DNA of 50,742 bases from Acaryochloris sp. IP29b_bin.137. Lineage in GTDB: Bacteria > Cyanobacteriota > Cyanobacteriia > Thermosynechococcales > Thermosynechococcaceae. Positions 9,544 to 46,343 of this stretch are shown here, in pieces. The stretch lies in NCBI RefSeq assembly GCF_028285745.1, contig NZ_JANQOP010000230.1:1-50742 (forward strand), read 5' to 3'. The position numbers and the translations under genes are program-made. Within the stretch, counting starts at the first letter, position 1, and each line of letters starts with the position of its first letter. A model generated the notes under the pieces. The model did not search any database and was not told the DNA's origin. It worked only from the letters and a program-made list of their open reading frames with translations.

Positions 9544-10452
9544 TTACCCATTACCCTCCTGCTGGGGCAGCACACCCACATTATTGAGAATCGTCATGGG
9601 GCCAAGGCGTTTCAACTGTTCAAGCTCCTGTTGATTGCGAACGAGGAGTGACCCCGCAAACCCCAAAGCGTTAATCGCTATCCCCTCAAAACTGGGTTGC
9701 GATCGCAACACCATCAACATCCATTTTCGTGTCACCAGCAGATTGTAAGCCCCCGTGGCCTGAGGACTGTTCGATTGAAAGGGTATCCCAATCGCGTCTA
9801 GCAGTTCGTGATAGAGGGCGAGTAATTTAGGGGTGAGGCTCTGAGCAGAAGCCGTCCAGTCTAGGGTTAGGGGCACCACCGCATGAACAAAGGAGAAGTC
9901 TGGAATATGGCCCAACCCCTGGAGATCCGCCGCTGCGATCAGTGGATCAATCGGTAAGTCAGGACGGCTGGGGATGAAGGGTAATGGCACCATCTGCAAA
10001 TGCTTGTGGGGCTGACTTGCCCCCGCCGCCTGCCCTCCGTTGTAAAAAGCTAATCCATCCAGTTCCGTCAAAACGAGTGCCAATGCCAACATGTCTACTT
10101 CATCTAGCCAAGTATCTTGACTGACAAACTCCCGCGTTACCATCAGGAGGTGGTGATCCATTACATTGAATTTATTCAATAGCACCAGATGCTGATCGGA
10201 TAGGTCAGCCACAAAAAGATGATCTTCATAGGGTAAAAACGGATTGAAGTTTTCGGGCTTGGGTGCTTTTTGGTGTTTGGATTTACGCTCAAGATTGGCC
10301 ACAATCCGCACCAAAAATTCTTGATGTCCTTCGGTCAAATATTCGTAATTCGTTGAAATAGACTGCAGGGCACCATTCTGCTGCGCGTGCTGCGTTCGAT
10401 GGATCAGTTGAGAGTAGAGTGTTCCTGGAATGAGCCGCTGGGTATTGTTCAT
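9544..10452 (-). CDS. apa: ATP adenylyltransferase (Ap4A phosphorylase)
   Basis: This enzyme phosphorolyses diadenosine tetraphosphate into ATP and ADP. The HIT-like active site SQPHKHLQMVPLPF is present, together with PYEDHLFVADLSDQHLVLLNKF and the C-terminal PQATGAYNLLVTRKWMLMVLR. The listed start gives 302 residues, close to the usual family length, and begins MNNTQRLIPGTLYSQL, where homologues begin. The frame stays open upstream to a TTG at 10539, which would add 29 residues that do not look conserved. No strong ribosome binding site distinguishes them. It is monocistronic and divergent from clpS. Confidence 0.9.
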   Translation of the reverse strand: MNNTQRLIPGTLYSQLIHRTQHAQQNGALQSISTNYEYLTEGHQEFLVRIVANLERKSKHQKAPKPENFNPFLPYEDHLFVADLSDQHLVLLNKFNVMDHHLLMVTREFVSQDTWLDEVDMLALALVLTELDGLAFYNGGQAAGASQPHKHLQMVPLPFIPSRPDLPIDPLIAAADLQGLGHIPDFSFVHAVVPLTLDWTASAQSLTPKLLALYHELLDAIGIPFQSNSPQATGAYNLLVTRKWMLMVLRSQPSFEGIAINALGFAGSLLVRNQQELEQLKRLGPMTILNNVGVLPQQEGNG

Positions 10453-10651
10453 AGGCTTGGTTAATATCAGTCTTGATCCATTTTTTTTGGCTATCTTGCG
10501 AACCATCCATCTGTCTGAGATTGCTTCAAGATTATTCAATGAGGCATAGGCAACTCAATATCAACAAGCTAGACTAATGTAAACTAACATTTCTCTTACT
10601 CGTCGCTGAATTAAGTTCATGCTTAAGCTTTCTTCCCTCGGTCGGCCACGC

Positions 10652-10963
10652 ATGGCGTCCACTGCAGTGCAAACGCCAGTCACCCGCCCAGAAGAAAAAC
10701 AAGCTCAAAAAACAGTTCGGAAGCCCTATCCGAATTTCAAGGTCATTGTGGTCAATGACGATATCAATACCTTCGAGCATGTTGCAAAGACCTTAATGAC
10801 ATACATCCCTCATATGACATCTGATCGGGCTTGGGAACTCACCAACCAAATTCACTTTGAAGGACAGGCCATCGTCTGGGTGGGGCCGCAAGAGCAAGCG
10901 GAACTATATCATATGCAACTCCAGCGGGCGGGCTTAACCATGGCTCCCCTGGAAGCAGCCTAA
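10652..10963 (+). CDS. clpS: ATP-dependent Clp protease adaptor ClpS
   Basis: ClpS delivers N-degron substrates to the ClpAP/ClpCP protease. The core reads YPNFKVIVVNDDINTFEHVAKTL, with the conserved NDD-x-x-TF substrate pocket, followed by the helical Clp-binding part. The 103-residue product from the ATG at 10652 aligns with family starts; an in-frame ATG at 10619 would add 11 residues. The next gene begins three bases after the stop, so clpS, the DUF2103 gene and trm1 probably form one transcript. Confidence 0.93.
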   Translation: MASTAVQTPVTRPEEKQAQKTVRKPYPNFKVIVVNDDINTFEHVAKTLMTYIPHMTSDRAWELTNQIHFEGQAIVWVGPQEQAELYHMQLQRAGLTMAPLEAA

Positions 10964-10966
10964 ACG

Positions 10967-11248
10967 ATGGCGAGCAAAGGTCGGTTAGTCCTTAACCATT
11001 CCACCCATATTCCCGGTTTATTGGTCATTTTAGAGAAACTCATTCACTTTCCCGGGATTCAAACCGTAACCCCCGGGGTGATTAGCCGTGTTAAAAGACA
11101 TTCACCCCATCTCCGATTAAGAGTGTCTGTGCCCATTCGTGGTGGATTTAAACTGTTAGCCCGCTCTGGCAAAACGGTGCAAGAAGTATTTGTTGTCACC
11201 ACCCTCCCGCAAGATCGTTTTTCCCAACTAATCGCCGAGTTGTGTTAG
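10967..11248 (+). CDS. DUF2103 family protein
   Basis: A 93-residue protein opening with KGRLVLNHSTHIPGLLVIL and continuing with GIQTVTPGVISRV and LRLRVSVPIRGGFKLLARSG, which I recognise as the DUF2103 family seen in cyanobacteria and archaea. The family has been described as a predicted metal-binding protein, but the function is not established. It begins three bases after clpS and overlaps the start of trm1 by seven bases, so translation is probably coupled. The context suggests a role linked to RNA or protein quality control, which is inference. Confidence 0.75.
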   Translation: MASKGRLVLNHSTHIPGLLVILEKLIHFPGIQTVTPGVISRVKRHSPHLRLRVSVPIRGGFKLLARSGKTVQEVFVVTTLPQDRFSQLIAELC

Positions 11249-12354
11249 AAAGTCCAAACTCTGAAGGGCAAGCCTTATTTCAGATTGGACCGGCGTTCTT
11301 TCGGCAGAGTAGCCGACCTGCCCGGGATTTAGGGGTCCTTGCTGCGGCTATCTACAAACAAGAGATGGGCCATCTACAAGTATTAGATGTGATGACGGGC
11401 TGTGGGGTGCGATCGCAACGCTATCTCTTAGAAAGCAACGCTGACTGGATTTGGGTCAACGATGCTAACCCAGAGTTAGCGGCTGTCTTGGCAAAGAACT
11501 TTAGACCGTTGCCTCCTGAACGGTATCGCCTCACCACTTATGCTGCCGAAGCGCTATTCCACGAGTGCTACCCACAGCACTGTACCTTTGATTTGATTGA
11601 CTTGGATAGCTTTGGCTTACCCACCGCCTTTTTACCAGGCTGTTTCCGAACTCTCAAACCTGGCGGGTTGCTGTATGTGACCGGAACTGATAGCCGCACC
11701 TTAGCGGGTCACAATCCAAACCATAGCCAGCGTCTGTTGGGGGCATGGGCGCGATCACACCCGGCTGCTCATGAGCAAGGTTTGCGATTACTGCTCGGGC
11801 TATGTTGGCAACAGGCTCAACCTGTGGGACTTCATATTCAGCCTATTTTTTCGTATTTTCAAGGTCAAGTCTATCGGGTGCTCATTCAAGTCACTGAGCG
11901 ACCCGTACAGAGCTGTATGGGCTTTTTGGGGTATTGCCACCATTGTGGCCACTACCAAACTGTTGCTTGGTCGCACCTGAGTCGGGCCGTCTGCCCGCAC
12001 CAAGGTCTTCCCTTAGTTCTCAGCGGCCCGATGTGGCTTGGAACCTTACACAGCCCGAACTGGTTGGGAAAAATGCAGCAGCTAGCCCGACACTGGGGGT
12101 GGACCGAGCAATCCCAGCGCTTACAAATTATGCACCAGGAAGCGGAGATGCCCCCCTACTTTTTCGCTATGGCAGATATCGGTCGTCGGGGGAAAATGGA
12201 TATTCCTAAGCGCGATCGCATCATCGCCCAGCTCCGCCAACAAGGATATCAGGCCTGCCTGACCCACATTCATCCCCAAGCGCTGAAAACCACCGCCTCT
12301 TTCCAGACCTGTCTCCAGATTGCAAAGCATCTCCAGATTGCCAAGCCCCTGTGA
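11242..12354 (+). CDS. trm1: tRNA (guanine26-N2)-dimethyltransferase Trm1
   Basis: The 370-residue product is a Trm1-type SAM-dependent enzyme, mainly archaeal and eukaryotic but also known in cyanobacteria and Aquifex. It methylates G26 of tRNA. Visible motifs are FFRQSSRPARDLGVLA, the SAM-binding region VLDVMTGCGVRSQRYLLE, and the catalytic DLIDLDSFG. The start is GTG at 11242, overlapping the previous stop by seven bases. A cysteine/histidine cluster (GYCHHCGHY) near residue 235 resembles the zinc site of the C-terminal domain. The C-terminus ends with a duplicated LQIAK unit created by an 18-base direct repeat. Confidence 0.9.
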   Translation: MLESPNSEGQALFQIGPAFFRQSSRPARDLGVLAAAIYKQEMGHLQVLDVMTGCGVRSQRYLLESNADWIWVNDANPELAAVLAKNFRPLPPERYRLTTYAAEALFHECYPQHCTFDLIDLDSFGLPTAFLPGCFRTLKPGGLLYVTGTDSRTLAGHNPNHSQRLLGAWARSHPAAHEQGLRLLLGLCWQQAQPVGLHIQPIFSYFQGQVYRVLIQVTERPVQSCMGFLGYCHHCGHYQTVAWSHLSRAVCPHQGLPLVLSGPMWLGTLHSPNWLGKMQQLARHWGWTEQSQRLQIMHQEAEMPPYFFAMADIGRRGKMDIPKRDRIIAQLRQQGYQACLTHIHPQALKTTASFQTCLQIAKHLQIAKPL

Positions 12355-37897: not shown

Positions 37898-39193
37898 ATG
37901 GCGGATTTACAACCTTACTTCCAGCTTCTTCGCGTTTCTGCAGAGGTTACGCCTGCTGAGCTAAAGGCTGCATTCCGTCGTCGAGCGCGTGAGTGTCATC
38001 CCGACCTTCATCCTGACAATCCGAATGCTGAGGCGGAATTTCAGCAATTGAGTGAAGCTTATGACATTATCTCTAAAGCTCTTTATCCCGCTCACCAAGC
38101 GGCCCCATTCATCTATGCTGATGGCAGTGACAGTCAGAGCCCTGCCCAAGCCCTCTATACCAGAGCCACCCAAAAAGCGGCTGAAAGAGACTATGAAGGG
38201 GCGATCAAAGATTACACCCGGGCCATCGAATACGATCCAAAATTTGTGGATGCCTATCTTAGACGGTGCCAAATCTGGTTTGTCCAAGGAGAGGATGAAA
38301 ACGTCCTCGCAGACTGTAATGAGATTCTCAAATTAGATGATACGGTTGCTCAGGCTTATTATTATCAGGGTCGCGCCCGATTTCAGTTAGGGTCAGCCCC
38401 CTCTGCAATTGCCTCCTACAGCCAAGCCATTGCCCTAGACGAAAACTATGCCCAAGCCTGGCTGCATCGAGGGCGGGCTCGTCGGGAGATGAACGCAGAT
38501 AAATTAGCTCGTGAAGATTTAACCCATGCAGCAGCATTGTTTGAAGCGCAAGGTGAGCCAGATGAAGTCCATCGCGTCCAAATGATATTGCAAGAGATGG
38601 GGCGTCGCCCATTCACTAAACCGAAGGTTAAGCCTTCAGAGCATCGTGGGCTGGTCCAAGATATCTTCTCGACCATTCCTCAATTTTTCTGGAACCCGAG
38701 TGGGGGGTTACTGCCCACCTTTGCGCGCTTGTCTGCTCGGCGCGCCACTGAAGTGGGGGTGGGCTATGCAGGATTATCCATCATAGGCTTCGTGTTGGCC
38801 GCTAATTTATTTCCTGGGGCCTTTAGTGCTGTCTCCTGGGCAGAGCGGCTGATGCTCAGTGCGGTGCCGTTTGTCAGTTTAGTCTTTTTAAATCAACTGG
38901 CCCGTAGCTTGACTCGCACTCGGGGCAGTTGGGCCAGCGATATCTTTATCAGTGGGGCAACGTTATTACCCCTAAGCCTGTTGATTTTCCTAAGTGAGTT
39001 GGTGGCTCAATTCGGGGCAGCGGCGGTTTGGATCGCCTCGTTCTATCTGGGGTGTGATGCAATATTGATCCTGTATGTAGGCTGTACTCAAATTAATAAT
39101 TTGTCAGAGCAAAGTGCCACATTAGCCGTGCCGACACTATTATGGGTAACCAGTGCCATAACTTATGGCACTTTTACGCTACTTGCCAACTAA
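37898..39193 (+). CDS. DnaJ-domain protein with TPRs and C-terminal membrane helices
   Basis: The 431-residue protein begins with a J domain (residues 4-62) containing the HPD motif in RARECHPDLHPDNP. TPR repeats follow at about 85-205 (AAERDYEGAIKDYTRAIEYD and similar). The C-terminal 150 residues have about four membrane segments. It should recruit Hsp70 (DnaK) to a membrane site. Its 3' end overlaps the start region of a site-2 protease gene that also carries TPRs, suggesting linked function. Confidence 0.85.
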   Translation: MADLQPYFQLLRVSAEVTPAELKAAFRRRARECHPDLHPDNPNAEAEFQQLSEAYDIISKALYPAHQAAPFIYADGSDSQSPAQALYTRATQKAAERDYEGAIKDYTRAIEYDPKFVDAYLRRCQIWFVQGEDENVLADCNEILKLDDTVAQAYYYQGRARFQLGSAPSAIASYSQAIALDENYAQAWLHRGRARREMNADKLAREDLTHAAALFEAQGEPDEVHRVQMILQEMGRRPFTKPKVKPSEHRGLVQDIFSTIPQFFWNPSGGLLPTFARLSARRATEVGVGYAGLSIIGFVLAANLFPGAFSAVSWAERLMLSAVPFVSLVFLNQLARSLTRTRGSWASDIFISGATLLPLSLLIFLSELVAQFGAAAVWIASFYLGCDAILILYVGCTQINNLSEQSATLAVPTLLWVTSAITYGTFTLLAN

Positions 39194-40917
39194 GCGAAAG
39201 GAATGAAACAGCCATTGTGATTGTTACTCTGATCGTTTTCTTGGGATGGATTGTCTCCGTTTGTCTGCACGAATTCGGACATGCCATTGTTGCCTATTGG
39301 GGGGGAGACAAAACGGTTAAGGATAAAGGATACCTCACCCTCAACCCGCTCAAGTACACGGATGTTTCCCTCAGCTTGGTGCTGCCGATTGTCTTTCTAT
39401 TGATTGGCGGTATCGCTTTACCCGGGGGAGCCGTGTATATCAATCACAGCCTCATTCGGAATCGCTGGTGGGAAAGTGCTATGTCTGCCGCGGGTCCTGC
39501 TGCAACCCTTCTGGTTGCGCTATTGATATCGGTTCCTTTTCGATTGATGAATCCACCTGATTCTTTGGAAAATTCGTTCAATATAGAAGCACTGGATCAA
39601 CAAACTCTTTCATTTCAGACTCATCTGACAACCCAAGATCAACTGTGGTTAGCCCTTGCTTTCCTGGGACTTCTAGAAGTTGCGGGTGCTGTTTTAAATT
39701 TACTGCCCATCCCCTCTTTAGATGGCTTTGGCATTATTGAGCCCTGGCTTCCCCCAAGCCTGCAGCAACAAGCGAAAAAGTTTGGGCGTTATGGTTTTTT
39801 AGTCCTATTCGCTTTACTGTGGTTTGTGCCAACTGCCAATGCTGCATTTTGGGGATTTGTGTTTGGCCTGAGTCACCAGCTAGGTATCCCCGCGTTGCTG
39901 TCTGGACAAGGGGCTTTGGTGTTTCGGCAAGGGTCTTGGCTACCATTGGTGGTGCTTGTGGCGACCATTGCCATTGGTCAACGACTAAATCCCCAGACCC
40001 GAGTGCAGACCGATCAGACGAAGGATTTGCAGCGTGCGATCGCACATTCAGAGCAAGCCGTTCAGGCCCATCCTGATCAGCCCCGGTTTTGGTATCAACG
40101 GGGGCAACTCTTACTGGACGACCATCAGTACGAAGCCGCTGAAGCGGCCTTTCACAAGGCCATTCAACTTCAGCCTGACGCAGATACTTGGCATTTAAGA
40201 GGGATTGCCCTGTTATTTATGGGGCAATACGAACATGCGATCGCAGCCTTCGACGAAACCTTACATCTCCAGTCCGATCAAGCCTTAGCTTGGGTGCATC
40301 GAGGTCGTGCGCAACGAGGGTTACAACGGTTTGAAGATGAAATTGCAGACTATGATCAAGCCCTTGCTCTGGATCCAGAGAATGCGAATATCTGGTGCGA
40401 TCGTGGTTTAGCCCACTATCACCTTTCCCAATATGAAGCTGCGATTGATAATTTTGATCGAGCCGCTTTTCTGGAACCATCCGCTTGGCAAGCATGGTAC
40501 CTGAAAGGACTCGCCTTGGTGCCTCAAGAAGAATACGCGCGGGCCATGCGCTGCTACGACCATGCTTTAGATCTACGGGCAGATGCGACCCAAACCTGGA
40601 TTGCGAAAGGTTCGGTTTTATTACAGCTCCAAGATTTTGAGAGCGCGATTGCTTCCTACAACCAAGCCCTGTCTCTAGAGCCTGAGAATGCCACAGCAGT
40701 CTATAACAAGGCTTGTACTTACAGCTTACAAGGACAAAATGCGATCGCTCTTGAGACACTGGATCAGGCCTTGCAACTTGATTCGCAAGCCAGTCGCCTA
40801 GCAGCTTCGGACGTCGATCTCGATCCATTGCGATCTCTTCCTGAGTTCCAACAATTACTGGCTCGTTATACTGCTCAGGACAGCGAGGCACCCCCTCCAG
40901 CTAACGGAGTAAAATAG
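39142..40917 (+). CDS. Site-2 protease (M50) with C-terminal TPR repeats
   Basis: The 591-residue protein has an M50 intramembrane metalloprotease domain. The zinc motif is HEFGH (43-47) and the third ligand is Asp194 in LLPIPSLDGFGI. It has about five or six membrane helices to residue 265, then roughly seven TPR repeats (about 290-575). The listed ATG lies inside the DnaJ gene; a GTG at 39220 (just before the first helix) is a good alternative because AAAGGA lies upstream. The TPR tail is unusual for the family and may recruit substrates. The 3' end overlaps a convergent gene by 17 bases. Confidence 0.83.
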   Translation: MGNQCHNLWHFYATCQLSERNETAIVIVTLIVFLGWIVSVCLHEFGHAIVAYWGGDKTVKDKGYLTLNPLKYTDVSLSLVLPIVFLLIGGIALPGGAVYINHSLIRNRWWESAMSAAGPAATLLVALLISVPFRLMNPPDSLENSFNIEALDQQTLSFQTHLTTQDQLWLALAFLGLLEVAGAVLNLLPIPSLDGFGIIEPWLPPSLQQQAKKFGRYGFLVLFALLWFVPTANAAFWGFVFGLSHQLGIPALLSGQGALVFRQGSWLPLVVLVATIAIGQRLNPQTRVQTDQTKDLQRAIAHSEQAVQAHPDQPRFWYQRGQLLLDDHQYEAAEAAFHKAIQLQPDADTWHLRGIALLFMGQYEHAIAAFDETLHLQSDQALAWVHRGRAQRGLQRFEDEIADYDQALALDPENANIWCDRGLAHYHLSQYEAAIDNFDRAAFLEPSAWQAWYLKGLALVPQEEYARAMRCYDHALDLRADATQTWIAKGSVLLQLQDFESAIASYNQALSLEPENATAVYNKACTYSLQGQNAIALETLDQALQLDSQASRLAASDVDLDPLRSLPEFQQLLARYTAQDSEAPPPANGVK

Positions 40918-42067: not shown

Positions 42068-42445
42068 CCCACCCTCACCAGGCTTATTGGTGATCTAGCA
42101 GTCAGATTTGTCTGGCCAAAATCACGAAAATATGATGATTATTCGAAGTTTAAGATAAGTGAAAGCCCTGATTCTTGGCAGGACCCTGACTGCCTGACAC
42201 GCCTACTCAGTCCCTTGGATTTATCCAGTGTGGCAAATGAAGGCTGCCAGACGATCTGAACGAGCTAACCTGAGCAGTTTATGCTGCAATGCAAGTCCAG
42301 TTAGCACAAGGCTTTGAGGCACTTACGTCAGGTAGTTAGGCCATTACCTCAATGCCAAAAAGTTTTCGATTGATTGCAGTTACAGGCTGTTTGATTTCTG
42401 ACATTTAATCTAATTTTTTTATCTATATGTTGACAATGTCAGATC
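42068..42445. other. Intergenic region upstream of the QueC-like operon
   Basis: This 378-base stretch contains a hairpin just after the BON gene (TCACCA/TGGTGA, 42075-42080 and 42088-42093) and otherwise no gene I can support. It should hold the promoter of the four-gene operon. A TTGACA at 42429-42434 lies very close to the first ATG at 42446. Confidence 0.5.
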
Positions 42446-42457
42446 ATGGGGTTACCT
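42429..42457 (+). promoter_or_regulatory. Possible promoter: TTGACA near the operon start
   Basis: TTGACA at 42429-42434 with a weak TACCTT 17 bases later would give transcription from about 42464. If true, the first ATG (42446) would not be transcribed and translation would begin at the ATG at 42494, seven bases after GGGGGA. It may equally be chance. Confidence 0.25.
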
Positions 42458-43123
42458 TCGAAGAAGAGTCTACTGCAAGTGGGGGACGAAAATATGCCTG
42501 ATGGAGATATTGTGCATAGCGGCTTAGGAAGGCTATATAAGAAGCCATATGAGTGGCTATGCGAAGGAAAAGCCACCAGTGAAGAATGTGCTCGAACTCC
42601 CCTGGCAGCCCTCAAGAAAGACATCATCCGAAAAGGTAATCTGCCTGTCAGACTTTCACAATATATGGCGGAAAGATTGATTCAAACTGTCAATGCGATA
42701 GGTGATATCAGTGCTGTTAACTGGACTGCTGTCAATACAGCATTTGATCAAATAGCCCAGCAAACGCATGGAAGTCATGCTCTTAAAGAGCTAACTTTAC
42801 GGGCGGCTAAGAGTTTCCTTCACGATCTAAGGTACGGACAAGAAACTACCATTAGCAATGCACCAACCGCAATCCTAAAAGGATTCTTTCATGAAGTATA
42901 TGAATCGGAATTCAAAGATCGAATTCCCCTTACTCCAACCCACCATGCTGGAGTTGATCCGACAATTTTAGATCAACGTATTGGGAATATAGAGCCGACC
43001 ATTTTTACTGCAATACAAAAGTGGGCCAATAAGGCAGTTCATGATGGAAGTGTCAAAAATATCCGATTACCAAGGCGCGAAAAAATCAAAGAAATAGATC
43101 TAAATGAGAATATCGGTTGGTAG
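42446..43123 (+). CDS. Unknown protein, first gene of the QueC-like operon
   Basis: The product is 225 residues from the ATG at 42446 (beginning MGLPSKKSLLQVG) or 209 from the ATG at 42494 (beginning MPDGDIVHSGLGR). The first lacks a clear ribosome binding site; the second has GGGGGA seven bases upstream. The protein is soluble, with no membrane segment. Notable parts are GRLYKKPYEWLCEGKATSEE, AKSFLHDLRYGQETTISNAP and a C-terminal basic stretch. I do not recognise a family. By position it corresponds to QatB, the protein partner next to the QueC-like enzyme in Qat operons. It ends 10 bases before the QueC-like start. Confidence 0.7.
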   Translation: MGLPSKKSLLQVGDENMPDGDIVHSGLGRLYKKPYEWLCEGKATSEECARTPLAALKKDIIRKGNLPVRLSQYMAERLIQTVNAIGDISAVNWTAVNTAFDQIAQQTHGSHALKELTLRAAKSFLHDLRYGQETTISNAPTAILKGFFHEVYESEFKDRIPLTPTHHAGVDPTILDQRIGNIEPTIFTAIQKWANKAVHDGSVKNIRLPRREKIKEIDLNENIGW

Positions 43124-43133
43124 GTTAATAGTT

Positions 43134-44552
43134 ATGGAAGAACACTACAAATTCGATAAAGACTATACATTTACTTTTGGACCTATTGAGAATGGTAATG
43201 GTAGTGTTCATGTTATTGAGCATAATAGTGGATTAGAGGACCATATAGGGATCAATATCTTTGATCAAGATTTCCAATATCGTTCTTCGCATAAGTTTCC
43301 AACAGTGGTGGCTGACCTGATTGACCTTGCGGTTAGTATTCATGCTTCTGATCGCCTTGCTTTGCAATCTATCCGTTATGAACAAACTCGAATCCATGTC
43401 ATTCTTCCTGTAAGAGTCCCAGAAGTAATGAATTCCAGTACATTTCTTGTTAAGTTAGTAAACTTACTAGGATGGACTACTGCTAGCCAATGGTCATTTG
43501 AGTTTCTAAAATGTGCTGATTCTGAACGCTTGATCGAACGGCAAGGAGCTATTCCTGTTATTCCTAGGAGCTGTGAAGTAGCGCTGTGGAGTGGAGGTCT
43601 AGATGCTCTTGCAGGGCTATATGCTCGTTTAGCAAGCAGTGACGCGGAATCCTTTTTGCTATTTGGCACAGGTAGTAACAACATTACCTATGCCCGCCAA
43701 AAACAAGTATATGAAAGCCTAAAGATTCCATATCGCGTTGATCTTTCTCGGATACCCATTAGATTTACAGGCAGCAACTTACATCGAAAAAATAAGATTT
43801 CTCGTGCCAGAGGCGTTGTCTTTACATTGCTTGGTTCAGCTTGTGCATACCTGATGGGCCAAAAAACCTTGCATGTATACGAGAACGGGATTGGTGCCAT
43901 AAATCTCCCGTACCGTAAGTCAGCAGTTGGACTAGAGCACACCCGATCAGTTCATCCCCTAACGTTATTGCAAGTTAGTGGTATTGTTTCAGAGCTGATA
44001 GGAGAAAAATTCACAGTTTACAATCCTTTCTTATTTTGGACCAAAGCCGAAATGTGCAAAGAACTCGCCAAGTACGAAAAAGACGATTTAGTGGCATTGA
44101 CAATGTCCTGTGATAGCCCCCACCGTCAGCAGCCAACTCAGTGTGGATACTGTTCATCTTGTATTTTGAGAAAACAGGCTCTTGCTGCCTCTCACATCAA
44201 AGATAAAACTTCTTATGTATTACCGAGCAAAAATAAACGAACAGATGATGTAAGCTTGCATCTAAGACACATGCTAGACCAAGTTTCTACCATCCAAAGC
44301 TTGTTAAATGTATCAAGAACTCCTAGTGCTCAGTGGCAGGGCCTGACTAAACAATTTCCGATATTAGATGACATCGTTGATCGAAGTGCTAGCGCAGAAA
44401 ATCTAACAGCTTCTGAGATGCAGCAAAAATTGATCCAGCTTTATCAAAGCTATGTGAATGAGTGGGATAATGCTGGATCTCAAATCCTGGCAAATTTCTC
44501 TGATCAAATCAGTGGTATGCCGCTATCTAATCGAAGTCCCATCACTGTGTAA
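43134..44552 (+). CDS. QueC-like PP-loop ATPase with extensions (QatC/Cap9-like)
   Basis: The 472-residue protein has a central QueC-like domain. The PP-loop is EVALWSGGLDALAG (SGGLDA, 153-158), and a four-cysteine zinc site (C326, C337, C340, C343) lies in CGYCSSCILRKQA. True QueC is about 220-240 residues with the PP-loop near the N-terminus. Here about 145 residues precede it and about 125 follow the zinc site, as in QatC-type proteins. QueC converts 7-carboxy-7-deazaguanine to preQ0 using ATP and ammonia; QatC and Cap9 relatives attach a deazaguanine to a protein N-terminus. I use the ATG at 43134; the frame opens at 43104. Its stop TAA overlaps an ATG (TAATG). Confidence 0.85.
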   Translation: MEEHYKFDKDYTFTFGPIENGNGSVHVIEHNSGLEDHIGINIFDQDFQYRSSHKFPTVVADLIDLAVSIHASDRLALQSIRYEQTRIHVILPVRVPEVMNSSTFLVKLVNLLGWTTASQWSFEFLKCADSERLIERQGAIPVIPRSCEVALWSGGLDALAGLYARLASSDAESFLLFGTGSNNITYARQKQVYESLKIPYRVDLSRIPIRFTGSNLHRKNKISRARGVVFTLLGSACAYLMGQKTLHVYENGIGAINLPYRKSAVGLEHTRSVHPLTLLQVSGIVSELIGEKFTVYNPFLFWTKAEMCKELAKYEKDDLVALTMSCDSPHRQQPTQCGYCSSCILRKQALAASHIKDKTSYVLPSKNKRTDDVSLHLRHMLDQVSTIQSLLNVSRTPSAQWQGLTKQFPILDDIVDRSASAENLTASEMQQKLIQLYQSYVNEWDNAGSQILANFSDQISGMPLSNRSPITV

Positions 44553-44572
44553 TGAGCTTGGAGAAAAAAGTG

Positions 44573-45775
44573 ATGGCTACAAATGTTTTAGATAATATAG
44601 ACTTACGTCGATTAGGAGAACGTCTGCAACAGGCACGGAAAAAGTGTGGAATGACACAAGCTGATGCAGGGCAAGTGATTGATGCAGCTCGGACTACCAT
44701 CGTAGCCATTGAAAAAGGGGACCGTCGGATCAAGCCTAACGAATTGATTCAACTAGCTCGTGCTTATGGGCGAGCAGTCAGTGATTTTGTTCGTTCTACT
44801 CCGCCCTCAGAACCTTTCGAAGTTCAATTTCGAGCAGCCTATCGTCGCAATCAAGCGGAAGAGAATCAGATCAAACCAAGTATTGACCGCCTTGAGGAAC
44901 TTTGCCGAAATTACCTAGAGCTTGAGCAAGCAATGGATGCACCGCTCCCTCGTAACTATCCTCAAGAGTACGAGGTTGCTAATATGCCTATTGAGGCTGC
45001 CGCAGAAAGTATTGCGATTGCCGAACGTCAGCGTCTTGGCCTTGGGGATGCCCCTATTCCTTTATTACGCGACATCTTAGAGCAAAGTGTGGGGATTCGC
45101 ATTTTCTACCTAGAAATGCCGCCCAAATATTCGGAAGTCTATAGCTATGACGAGCAGCTTGGGGGATGTATGGCTATCAATATTTCACATCCTGAAGAAC
45201 GTCGGCGCTGGTCAATGGCTCATGGATATCTACATTTTCTAGCACATAGATACAAGCCTGTTGTGGATTTTGATGGCCAGTATCAGAGGATTCCAGAGAG
45301 TGAAAGACTTGCTGAAGCGTTTCCACCATATTTTCTGATGCCAACCAGTGGGTTGCTCAGCCGATTTAACGATATGTATCGTACTCATAATAAGTTTACT
45401 CCCACTAATTTATTTACCCTTGCTCATTACTACGGTGTATCTATAGAAGCGCTTGTTTATCGTTTGGAAGGAATGTCACTGGTACCCTCAGGCACTTGGG
45501 AGCGACTAAAAGATCGCGGCCTGAAAGTCAGACAGGTTCAGCAAGAGCTGGAATTAGAGGACATTCCACGTCGAACTGATATGGTGCCTATTCATTATCA
45601 ACACTTAGCGATTGAAGCTTTGGATCAAGGACTGATTACTGAGGGACGTTTTAGTCATCTTTTGGGTGTTGATCGACTGGAAGGTCGTCGGATTGCAGAG
45701 GAGATGCGTGAATATTCTAGTGGCATGGTAGAGCCAGTAATGTATATAGATTTGCTTGATCTCCATCAAGCGTAA
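44573..45775 (+). CDS. XRE-family HTH fused to ImmA/IrrE-like domain, zinc motif altered
   Basis: The 400-residue protein has an N-terminal XRE helix-turn-helix (about 12-66; GERLQQARKKCGMTQADAGQ) and an ImmA/IrrE (DUF955) domain around 130-260. The expected HExxH reads HGYLH (217-221, in SMAHGYLHFLAHRY), so both metal-binding histidines remain but the catalytic Glu is Gly. The downstream SERLAEAFPPYFLMP retains the third-ligand region. It may be a DNA-binding regulator with an inactive or altered protease part. I chose the ATG at 44573, nine bases after GGAG; the ATG at 44552 is the alternative. It is followed 16 bases later by the PIN gene. Confidence 0.88.
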   Translation: MATNVLDNIDLRRLGERLQQARKKCGMTQADAGQVIDAARTTIVAIEKGDRRIKPNELIQLARAYGRAVSDFVRSTPPSEPFEVQFRAAYRRNQAEENQIKPSIDRLEELCRNYLELEQAMDAPLPRNYPQEYEVANMPIEAAAESIAIAERQRLGLGDAPIPLLRDILEQSVGIRIFYLEMPPKYSEVYSYDEQLGGCMAINISHPEERRRWSMAHGYLHFLAHRYKPVVDFDGQYQRIPESERLAEAFPPYFLMPTSGLLSRFNDMYRTHNKFTPTNLFTLAHYYGVSIEALVYRLEGMSLVPSGTWERLKDRGLKVRQVQQELELEDIPRRTDMVPIHYQHLAIEALDQGLITEGRFSHLLGVDRLEGRRIAEEMREYSSGMVEPVMYIDLLDLHQA

Positions 45776-45791
45776 GCGGTGGAGAATACTC

Positions 45792-46343
45792 ATGTTAATT
45801 CAGCAATCCCACCTAGTACTTGATGCTTGCTGCGTCCTCAATTTTTCTGCTTCAGGTCATTTTCTAGAGATCATAAAAGCGATTCCTGCAAAAGTTGTTG
45901 TTAGTGAAGTGGTCAAAACGCAAGAATTGATTACCCTACAACAACTAGAAAGTGAAGGCAATGAAGCTGTTATACAGTTTGAAACAGCAATAAACAAAGG
46001 TTTGCTGTTAATTGCAGACTTTGAGTCGGCTGAAGAGGAAGAAACCTTTGTAAAGTATGTTTTTGAGCTTGGAGATGATGGTGAATCAGCAACGGGTGCG
46101 ATCGCAGTTCATCGTGAATGGGCTATCGCAACAGATGATAAAAGGGCTATTTCTTTTTTTCATCAAGAAGCATCTCAGCTCAAGATTGTTTCAACACTAG
46201 AAGTAATCAAATTTTGGGCAGACTCTGCCAATCTATCTGCGTCAGAATTGAAAAATGTGCTCAAAGATATTCGTGTAAAAGGACGGTATGTGCCACACAA
46301 GAATCATCCATTATTGGATTGGTGGCAATTGGCAATGCAGTAG
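45792..46343 (+). CDS. PIN-like domain nuclease
   Basis: The 183-residue protein has the acidic residues of a PIN domain: Asp11 (LVLDACC), Glu39 (VVVSEV), Asp95/Asp96/Glu98 (LGDDGESATGA) and Asp115/Asp116 (ATDDKRA). PIN domains are Mg2+-dependent RNases, often toxins in VapBC-type pairs. The GGAG seven bases before the ATG at 45792 fixes the start; the longer frame from 45756 overlaps the previous gene. It is the last gene of the operon and likely the effector, with the XRE-IrrE protein as its regulator or antitoxin. It holds the only HIP1 site of the operon (46098-46105). Confidence 0.78.
   Translation: MLIQQSHLVLDACCVLNFSASGHFLEIIKAIPAKVVVSEVVKTQELITLQQLESEGNEAVIQFETAINKGLLLIADFESAEEEETFVKYVFELGDDGESATGAIAVHREWAIATDDKRAISFFHQEASQLKIVSTLEVIKFWADSANLSASELKNVLKDIRVKGRYVPHKNHPLLDWWQLAMQ

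Follow-up and report, generated by a model that had tools for sequence, protein, structure and literature searches.

The described systems closest to the locus reported here involve either QueC-family enzymes or regulators of the XRE-ImmA type. Canonical QueC makes a metabolite (PMC13329287). In type IV cyclic oligonucleotide-based antiphage signalling systems (CBASS; Cap9/Cap10), a QueC-family enzyme acts on the N-terminus of its partner (PMC11996544, PMC13329287). In qatABCD, QatBC by itself is enough against some phages, with the QatB N-terminus required; this recent work did not succeed in establishing what reaction QatC carries out or in what way the modified partner acts (PMC13279940). 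Among antitoxins, RipB/Spr1629 is a fusion of a helix-turn-helix (HTH) with ImmA that has experimental support (PMC12795458), and COG2856-Xre with PIN is a predicted toxin–antitoxin system (PMC2701414). Here we describe a four-gene operon at 42446–46343 of contig NZ_JANQOP010000230.1 from Acaryochloris sp. IP29b_bin.137; the whole 50,742-nucleotide stretch that was analysed is called the window. The operon places a partner gene and a QatC-like gene (g1 and g2, module 1) ahead of a regulator and a PIN gene (g3 and g4, module 2). We give an even chance to the reading that it is a two-module conflict system, in which a QatBC-like modification module would arm the regulator/PIN pair for abortive defence. 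Taking the whole analysis together, the cassette is probably an uncatalogued defence against viruses. The four-gene set is absent from PADLOC 2.0, NCBIfam (June 2026) and Pfam, and no paper describing it was found in literature searches whose scope mostly excluded subscription text. The elements of the operon are as follows.

42399–42405, + strand: first operator-like copy, TGACATT, 95 bases ahead of the g1 start, recognised by motif recurrence.
42430–42441, + strand: second operator-like copy, the palindrome TTGACAATGTCA, also recognised by motif recurrence.
42494–43123, + strand: g1, a 209-residue all-helical partner protein with a conserved flexible N-terminus, MPDGD; the gene in the QatB position and putative substrate of g2.
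43134–44552, + strand: g2, a 472-residue QatC-like QueC-family PP-loop protein with SGGLDA, TRSVHP and four zinc-site cysteines.
44552–45775, + strand: g3, an XRE helix-turn-helix fused to an ImmA/IrrE-like domain reading HGYLH, with the catalytic glutamate absent; an RmrA/RipB-like predicted antitoxin and autorepressor.
44573, + strand: alternative start of g3, at a conserved Met.
45792–46343, + strand: g4, a 183-residue PIN-fold protein, predicted ribonuclease toxin/effector.

The original prediction, made from the letters alone, was of four tightly packed genes on one strand. The coordinates of the four open reading frames in 42446–46343 bear this out, with gaps of 10 bases between g1 and g2 and 16 bases between g3 and g4. 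The frames themselves stand, and two of the predicted starts probably do not. The most likely start of g1 is 42494 (MPDGDIVH..., after GGGGGA), because most homologues begin there and the 16 extra residues upstream have no counterpart in them; a protein of 209 residues is thus likelier than one of 225. Similarly, g4 most likely starts at the ATG at 45792 rather than at the TTG at 45756. A g1 beginning M-G, with the glycine of QatB, came from the upstream start 16 residues earlier and was dropped once homologues were compared.

The gene order is widely conserved. A search of genome contigs by g2 patterns turned up 220 relatives, the best 80 of which were analysed as loci. These loci were picked by g2 alone, and profile searches find g3 adjoining g2 in 79/80 and g4 adjoining g3 in 76/80; three of the four g4 misses lie at contig ends, and the fourth is L098. 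There is no usable g1 in 10 of the 80 (five cut by contig ends, one deletion, one broken in L078 and three unclear). A g2 search of 386 cyanobacterial genomes matched 14, and in 10 of these, the window included, g2 is full length. The loci with a full-length g2 run in the order g1-g2-g3-g4; L018 has a broken g1 and L019 a broken g4. An eleventh cyanobacterial locus, L024, has a deletion running through g1 and g2. By record titles and tree labels, the set occurs in Cyanobacteriota, Chloroflexota, Acidobacteriota, Actinomycetota, Planctomycetota, Verrucomicrobiota, Pseudomonadota and Armatimonadota; with metagenome-assembled genomes (MAGs) called Bacteroidota and Gemmatimonadetes, this makes about ten phyla in all. 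Copies are also present on alphaproteobacterial plasmids. Among plasmid loci related to this type of g2, 14/14 examined carry g2-g3-g4, with a gene in the g1 position ahead, and six more distant plasmid records are ordinary Qat loci. Since the order recurs in such distant genomes, the arrangement is not due to chance. Correlations of identity between the genes are 0.72–0.90 over 72 loci, with 0/500 permutations as high for each pair; they partly reflect two clades, and are 0.68–0.78 within 26 cyanobacterial loci. These identity correlations indicate that the four genes are inherited as a unit. A search of viral contigs gave 1 weak relative among 21 stretches, and phage records gave 2 weak matches. 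The original prediction knew of no described system with this gene set, and had staked itself on the genes co-occurring elsewhere and on their absence from catalogues; within the searches made, the genes do co-occur, and none of the catalogues lists them. The only one of the 80 loci without g3-g4, L098 (5256–11061), has a gene in the g1 position followed by g2 and then, about 500 bases past g2, a gene for a 1066-residue NACHT protein (Pfam NACHT, 7.8e-14). Module 1 may have another output there.

The g2 protein matches QueC PF06508 (E 1.7e-8; 34.7 bits vs a cut-off of 22) and PADLOC QatC (E 1.2e-40), the latter in an alignment of residues 57–374 that extends beyond the QueC core, and a nine-member g2 profile matches PDB 9vlk (E 5.6e-38). 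This bears out the QueC-like PP-loop identity that had been assigned from the sequence. The likeness to QatB–QatC includes the placement of a small helical protein gene just ahead of a large QueC-family gene, the flexible conserved N-terminus of the partner, and the shared g2 motifs RxRG..F, ExG, HP, TK and four Cys. The four zinc-site cysteines are kept in 94–95 of 95 copies. In the PP-loop, the S, the third-position G and the D are kept in 92–93 of 95, and other positions are altered: among 93 aligned copies, the second position is G in 56 and D/N/E/K in 37, and the last is S in 61 and A in 32. QatC has residues T278 and T280 (PMC13279940); in our alignment of 95 copies, the place of the first is mainly Y (34), S (29) or T (22) and the place of the second mainly S (47), N (21) or A (11). 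The g2 pocket differs from the YxD of QueC; the DYRN type, which makes up part of the family, shares QueC's Tyr in the pocket. We do not use co-variation between tail and pocket as evidence, since it is confounded by the two clades.

The differences from qatABCD lie in both the enzyme and the gene content. On the curated QatC model NF041925, the window's g2 scores 149.1 bits and that of L036 119.6 bits vs a cut-off of 280, and the PP-loop is altered. There is no QatA or QatD here, and g1 is unrelated to QatB by sequence or detected fold and begins M-[PSAT]-DG rather than MGTS. A profile of 5 plasmid QatA proteins matches in 1/80 loci (L078, downstream on the other strand and outside the cassette), a profile of 6 plasmid QatD proteins in 0/80 and a QatB profile in 0/80; these counts support the predicted lack of a Qat ATPase and TatD nuclease. 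A degenerate qatABCD is rejected, since QatA and QatD are missing and g1 is unlike QatB. The match in L078, a Chloroploca locus, is a QatA-like ATPase at 10174–11673, on the opposite strand near the cassette in which g1 is broken. A tree of 40 g2, 6 QatC, 10 QueC and 2 ungrouped rows puts QatC as one group between two g2 clades with weak support (86/76), and in 4% of bootstrap trees a branch separates g2 from the rest; with support this weak, the g2 family is not shown as a clade apart from QatC. The architecture may be older than qatABCD, with Qat arising by a swap of output genes. Compared with type IV CBASS, g2 at 472 residues is more than twice as long as Cap9 (~190), and its pocket differs. 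Type IV CBASS is rejected, as none of the four proteins matches a CD-NTase; in PADLOC, g2 weakly matches QueC (8e-7) and g3 weakly matches capP (9e-10) and capH (1e-7), all of them ranking below QatC and RmrA. A metabolic QueC is also rejected, since the host has its own queC plus a neighbouring queE-like gene (G000:C200).

The partner protein g1 has no domain above cut-off, the best being DUF6961 at E 0.056. Its AlphaFold2 model has seven helices with a predicted local distance difference test score (pLDDT) of 92, and residues 1–10 have a mean pLDDT of 58. The most conserved columns are 1, 3, 4 and 5, and the N-terminus is mostly M-[PSAT]-D-G-[DP], or more loosely M-[PSAT]-[DE], and not MGTS. 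The g1 starts were found by a search for M.?DG in 56 of the 77 loci with an upstream reading frame (shuffled sequence would give ~10%) and were set manually in 15; this conservation is partly chosen, because the starts were picked partly by that motif. As an independent check, 12/12 database-annotated plasmid g1 starts carry D-G at residues 3–4. At residue 2, 69/71 copies have P, S, A or T, from which the usual rule (PMC13279940) predicts removal of the Met. The plasmid copy in L046 reads M-R-D-G. There is no support for a glycine acceptor at the N-terminus such as QatB and CBASS have, the second residue being mostly P/S/A/T, and D in four cyanobacterial copies. The C-terminus has a conserved patch, mostly [LIM]-[DNE]-[ED]. 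The suggestion that the small protein is a substrate of the enzyme is supported indirectly, by the conserved flexible N-terminus and the QatB-like gene position.

The regulator g3 carries HTH_3 (4.3e-13) and Peptidase_M78/IrrE (7.8e-24) domains and matches PADLOC RmrA at E 3e-24, in keeping with the predicted XRE/ImmA-IrrE identity. It shares the HTH plus ImmA architecture of the Rosmer and RipAB antitoxins; the difference is that the partner here is a PIN protein and that there are two extra genes. The window's g4 matches 0 PADLOC families up to E 1, so the antitoxin–toxin pair of RosmerTA, whose toxin is called RmrT, is not found. Among 93 aligned copies of g3, 61 keep the glutamate of HExxH, while 25 have G and 7 have D in its place, and both histidines are present in 93/93; the window reads HGYLH, and ImmA proteolysis as a general mechanism was dropped owing to this. 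The g4 protein has no Pfam match. Its AlphaFold2 model is confident (pLDDT 94) and has six PDB matches at E <=0.001, the best at 2.7e-4, with Nob1 and VapC entries among them. By this model g4 folds as a PIN domain, which is what the sequence reading had made of it. The acidic positions are kept in 85–91 of 91. The COG2856-Xre/PIN pairs likewise have a fused HTH/zincin gene sharing an operon with a PIN gene, and a term search of the accessible text on them finds no mention of COG0603 or PP-loop (PMC2701414). The DefensePredictor paper mentions a PIN nuclease, and a term search of its accessible text for IrrE, ImmA, Qat and XRE gave none (PMC13092281). An alphaproteobacterial PIN gene of the family (L036, 7545–8168) has a weak match (E 5e-7) to PDC-S70, a candidate family in PADLOC; the defence candidates already listed may therefore include relatives of the toxin.

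The occurrence of the two modules is lopsided. Among the 386 cyanobacterial genomes, g3 is found in 24: with a full-length g2 in 10, with the g1/g2 deletion in G087 and with no g2 in 13. Upstream of g3, 7/14 loci lacking an intact g1-g2 retain remnants of g1 or g2; the one at L187 is weak (E 0.001), L190 and L191 may be one event, and a 15-base g2-like match at L193 is not counted. Of the same 24 genomes, 20 have a full-length g4, 3 (G042, G215, G306) a broken one and 1 (G229) none. A full-length g4 without g3 is found in none of the 386, although the numbers are small, and the only g4 without g3 is a stop-riddled remnant in G233. From this pattern of genes, g3-g4 looks like a toxin–antitoxin-like unit, as had been proposed for the regulator/nuclease pair. 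Since g3-g4 stands alone and g1-g2 does so in 1/80 loci, the pattern suggests that module 1 works by way of module 2 and is dispensable for silencing the PIN protein. It also suggests that g3-g4 is the core and g1-g2 an add-on. In one genus, L190, L191 and L015 (G157, G262 and G255) have g3-g4 with and without g1-g2, with the 3′ end of g2 remaining, and these would make a natural comparison for phage sensitivity.

Upstream of the operon, most loci carry TGACATT or its complement at ~98 and ~62 bases ahead of g1. In the window, TTGACAWTGTCA has its single exact occurrence in the 5.5-Mb host assembly (88% complete), at 42430. At least one site is present within 300 bases upstream of g1 in 26/28 cyanobacterial loci, with 49 sites vs 1.6 expected from resampled sequence. 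In other phyla, a site is present in 36/44 loci (51 vs 2.2 expected), and in loci with a solo g3, in 9/13 (16 vs 0.9 expected), one of the nine being unusually far up. The site is thus kept ahead of g3 in most solo loci, which fits autoregulation by g3.

Putting these together, we envisage that g3 would bind TGACAwTGTCA operators, repress the operon and hold the PIN ribonuclease g4 in check. The ATP-using g2 would take the flexible tail of g1, with its Met removed and usually reading P/S/A/T-D-G, into its active site and attach to it a small molecule of carboxylate type. In turn, g3 would read the state of g1, so that upon phage infection the PIN protein would be released, RNA cleaved and growth stopped. 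More tentatively, and below an even call, this may be a chemically switched toxin–antitoxin, with the g2 adduct on a non-glycine g1 residue, a reagent other than 7-carboxy-7-deazaguanine, and a non-proteolytic reading of the adduct by an XRE-ImmA antitoxin controlling PIN. If the modification takes place, this would be a third immune-type context for protein modification by the QueC family and, within the searches made, the first linked to a toxin–antitoxin output. A modification would have a measurable consequence, because the genes of partner and enzyme adjoin those of a plausible read-out that includes a recognisable toxin. The family also offers natural variation for comparing reagents and acceptors, with TRS, YRN and YRG among its pockets and MPDGD, MSDGPH and MAEN among its tails.

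Several observations weigh against the two-module conflict system. First, the partner is poorly tied to QatB. A profile comparison of g1 with QatB (HHalign) gives a probability of 1–2%, and the g1 fold has 70 PDB matches at E 10 with none <=0.001, the QatB structures 9zee and 9vll perhaps being outside the fold library. The g1 profile itself matches only 60/80 loci, and the other 20 rest on position and N-terminus, or are cut. The glycine on which QatB and CBASS depend is missing at the N-terminus, and a G2D change abolishes both modification in CBASS and defence by Qat (PMC13279940); four of 11 early cyanobacterial copies read M-D-G, in which the Met would normally stay. Second, the PP-loop of g2 is altered in many members (SGGLDA, or S[DNEK]GxDS). 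Third, proteolysis cannot be the general mechanism of g3, because the ImmA glutamate is G or D in 32/93, the window included, and four of the 13 solo g3 loci (L190, L191, L192 and L194) are without the operator motif. Fourth, recognisable QueC and QueE are missing in 3/12 non-cyanobacterial hosts, although their genomes may be incomplete. Finally, the contrast in defence neighbours described below is weak (Fisher one-sided 0.035, two-sided 0.07), and there are no defence genes among the window's own neighbours, so the window is not a defence island.

It is unlikely that g3-g4 is a selfish or stress toxin–antitoxin unit, to which g1-g2 is a hitch-hiker or a second antitoxin module that inactivates PIN, with no antiviral role. 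The toxin–antitoxin-like presence of g3-g4 without g2 in 13/24 genomes and the copies on plasmids speak for such a unit, but a hitch-hiker would not keep g3 alongside in 79/80 loci, and at least six loci lost g1-g2 and kept g3-g4, so that g1-g2 is unneeded there to neutralise PIN. The same losses bear on a true Qat variant, which we hold doubtful, in which g1-g2 alone would be an antiviral effector like QatBC and g3-g4 would only regulate it or guard against its loss. A guard should punish the loss of g1-g2, yet those loci have kept g3-g4, and g1 is unmatched to QatB; to its credit, g2 is clearly QatC-like, the operator makes g3 a likely regulator of the operon, and QatBC alone defends against some phages (PMC13279940). 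It is very unlikely that g2 makes a small molecule (preQ0-like or other) sensed by the ImmA domain of g3 with no protein modification. Against this, the alignment of g2 with QatC runs past the QueC core, conservation in g1 is highest at the N-terminus and the pocket differs from QueC's YxD; in its favour, canonical QueC makes a metabolite (PMC13329287) and the DYRN-type g2 has a Tyr at QueC's Tyr pocket position.

As to the supply of a reagent for the two-module system, QueC is above cut-off, and a QueE-like match below cut-off, in 11/11 cyanobacterial hosts, a count that is uninformative by itself. Among 12 other hosts, QueC is above cut-off in 7. Nonomuraea (G386) has no PTPS or QueE match and a marginal QueC (E 9e-4), and Chloroploca (G390) and a Bryobacterales MAG (G397) have PTPS without QueC or a convincing QueE. 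Given these three hosts, 7-carboxy-7-deazaguanine made on site cannot be assumed everywhere, and as a universal reagent it is unsupported. In Actinomadura (G387) and Methylobacterium variabile (G393), a QueD-type and a QueE-like gene adjoin each other (G387:C16:128844–130055 and G393:C123:4131–5203), and there is no QueC above cut-off. These pairs are a possible source of 7-carboxy-7-deazaguanine without preQ0 synthesis.

The genomic context was compared on the plasmids, where product names were classed by reading. Names indicating defence, toxin–antitoxin or restriction are found near 7/10 plasmid cassettes vs 2/10 control windows taken from those plasmids; in control L182, an HNH endonuclease is left uncounted. 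The association of the plasmid copies with defence is suggestive only. In Roseomonas mucosa (L046, 8206–9327), a Shedu immune nuclease gene comes directly after the cassette. In the window, the cassette has a G+C content of ~42% vs ~49% in its flanks, which suggests horizontal gain. The flanking genes encode DnaJ with tetratricopeptide repeats (TPR), M50-TPR, a protein with a weak BON match, UPF0014, a SnoaL-like protein and DAHP synthase. The M50-TPR gene, at 39142–40917 and adjoining the DnaJ-TPR gene, encodes a 591-residue protein with an M50 peptidase-like domain followed by TPR repeats.

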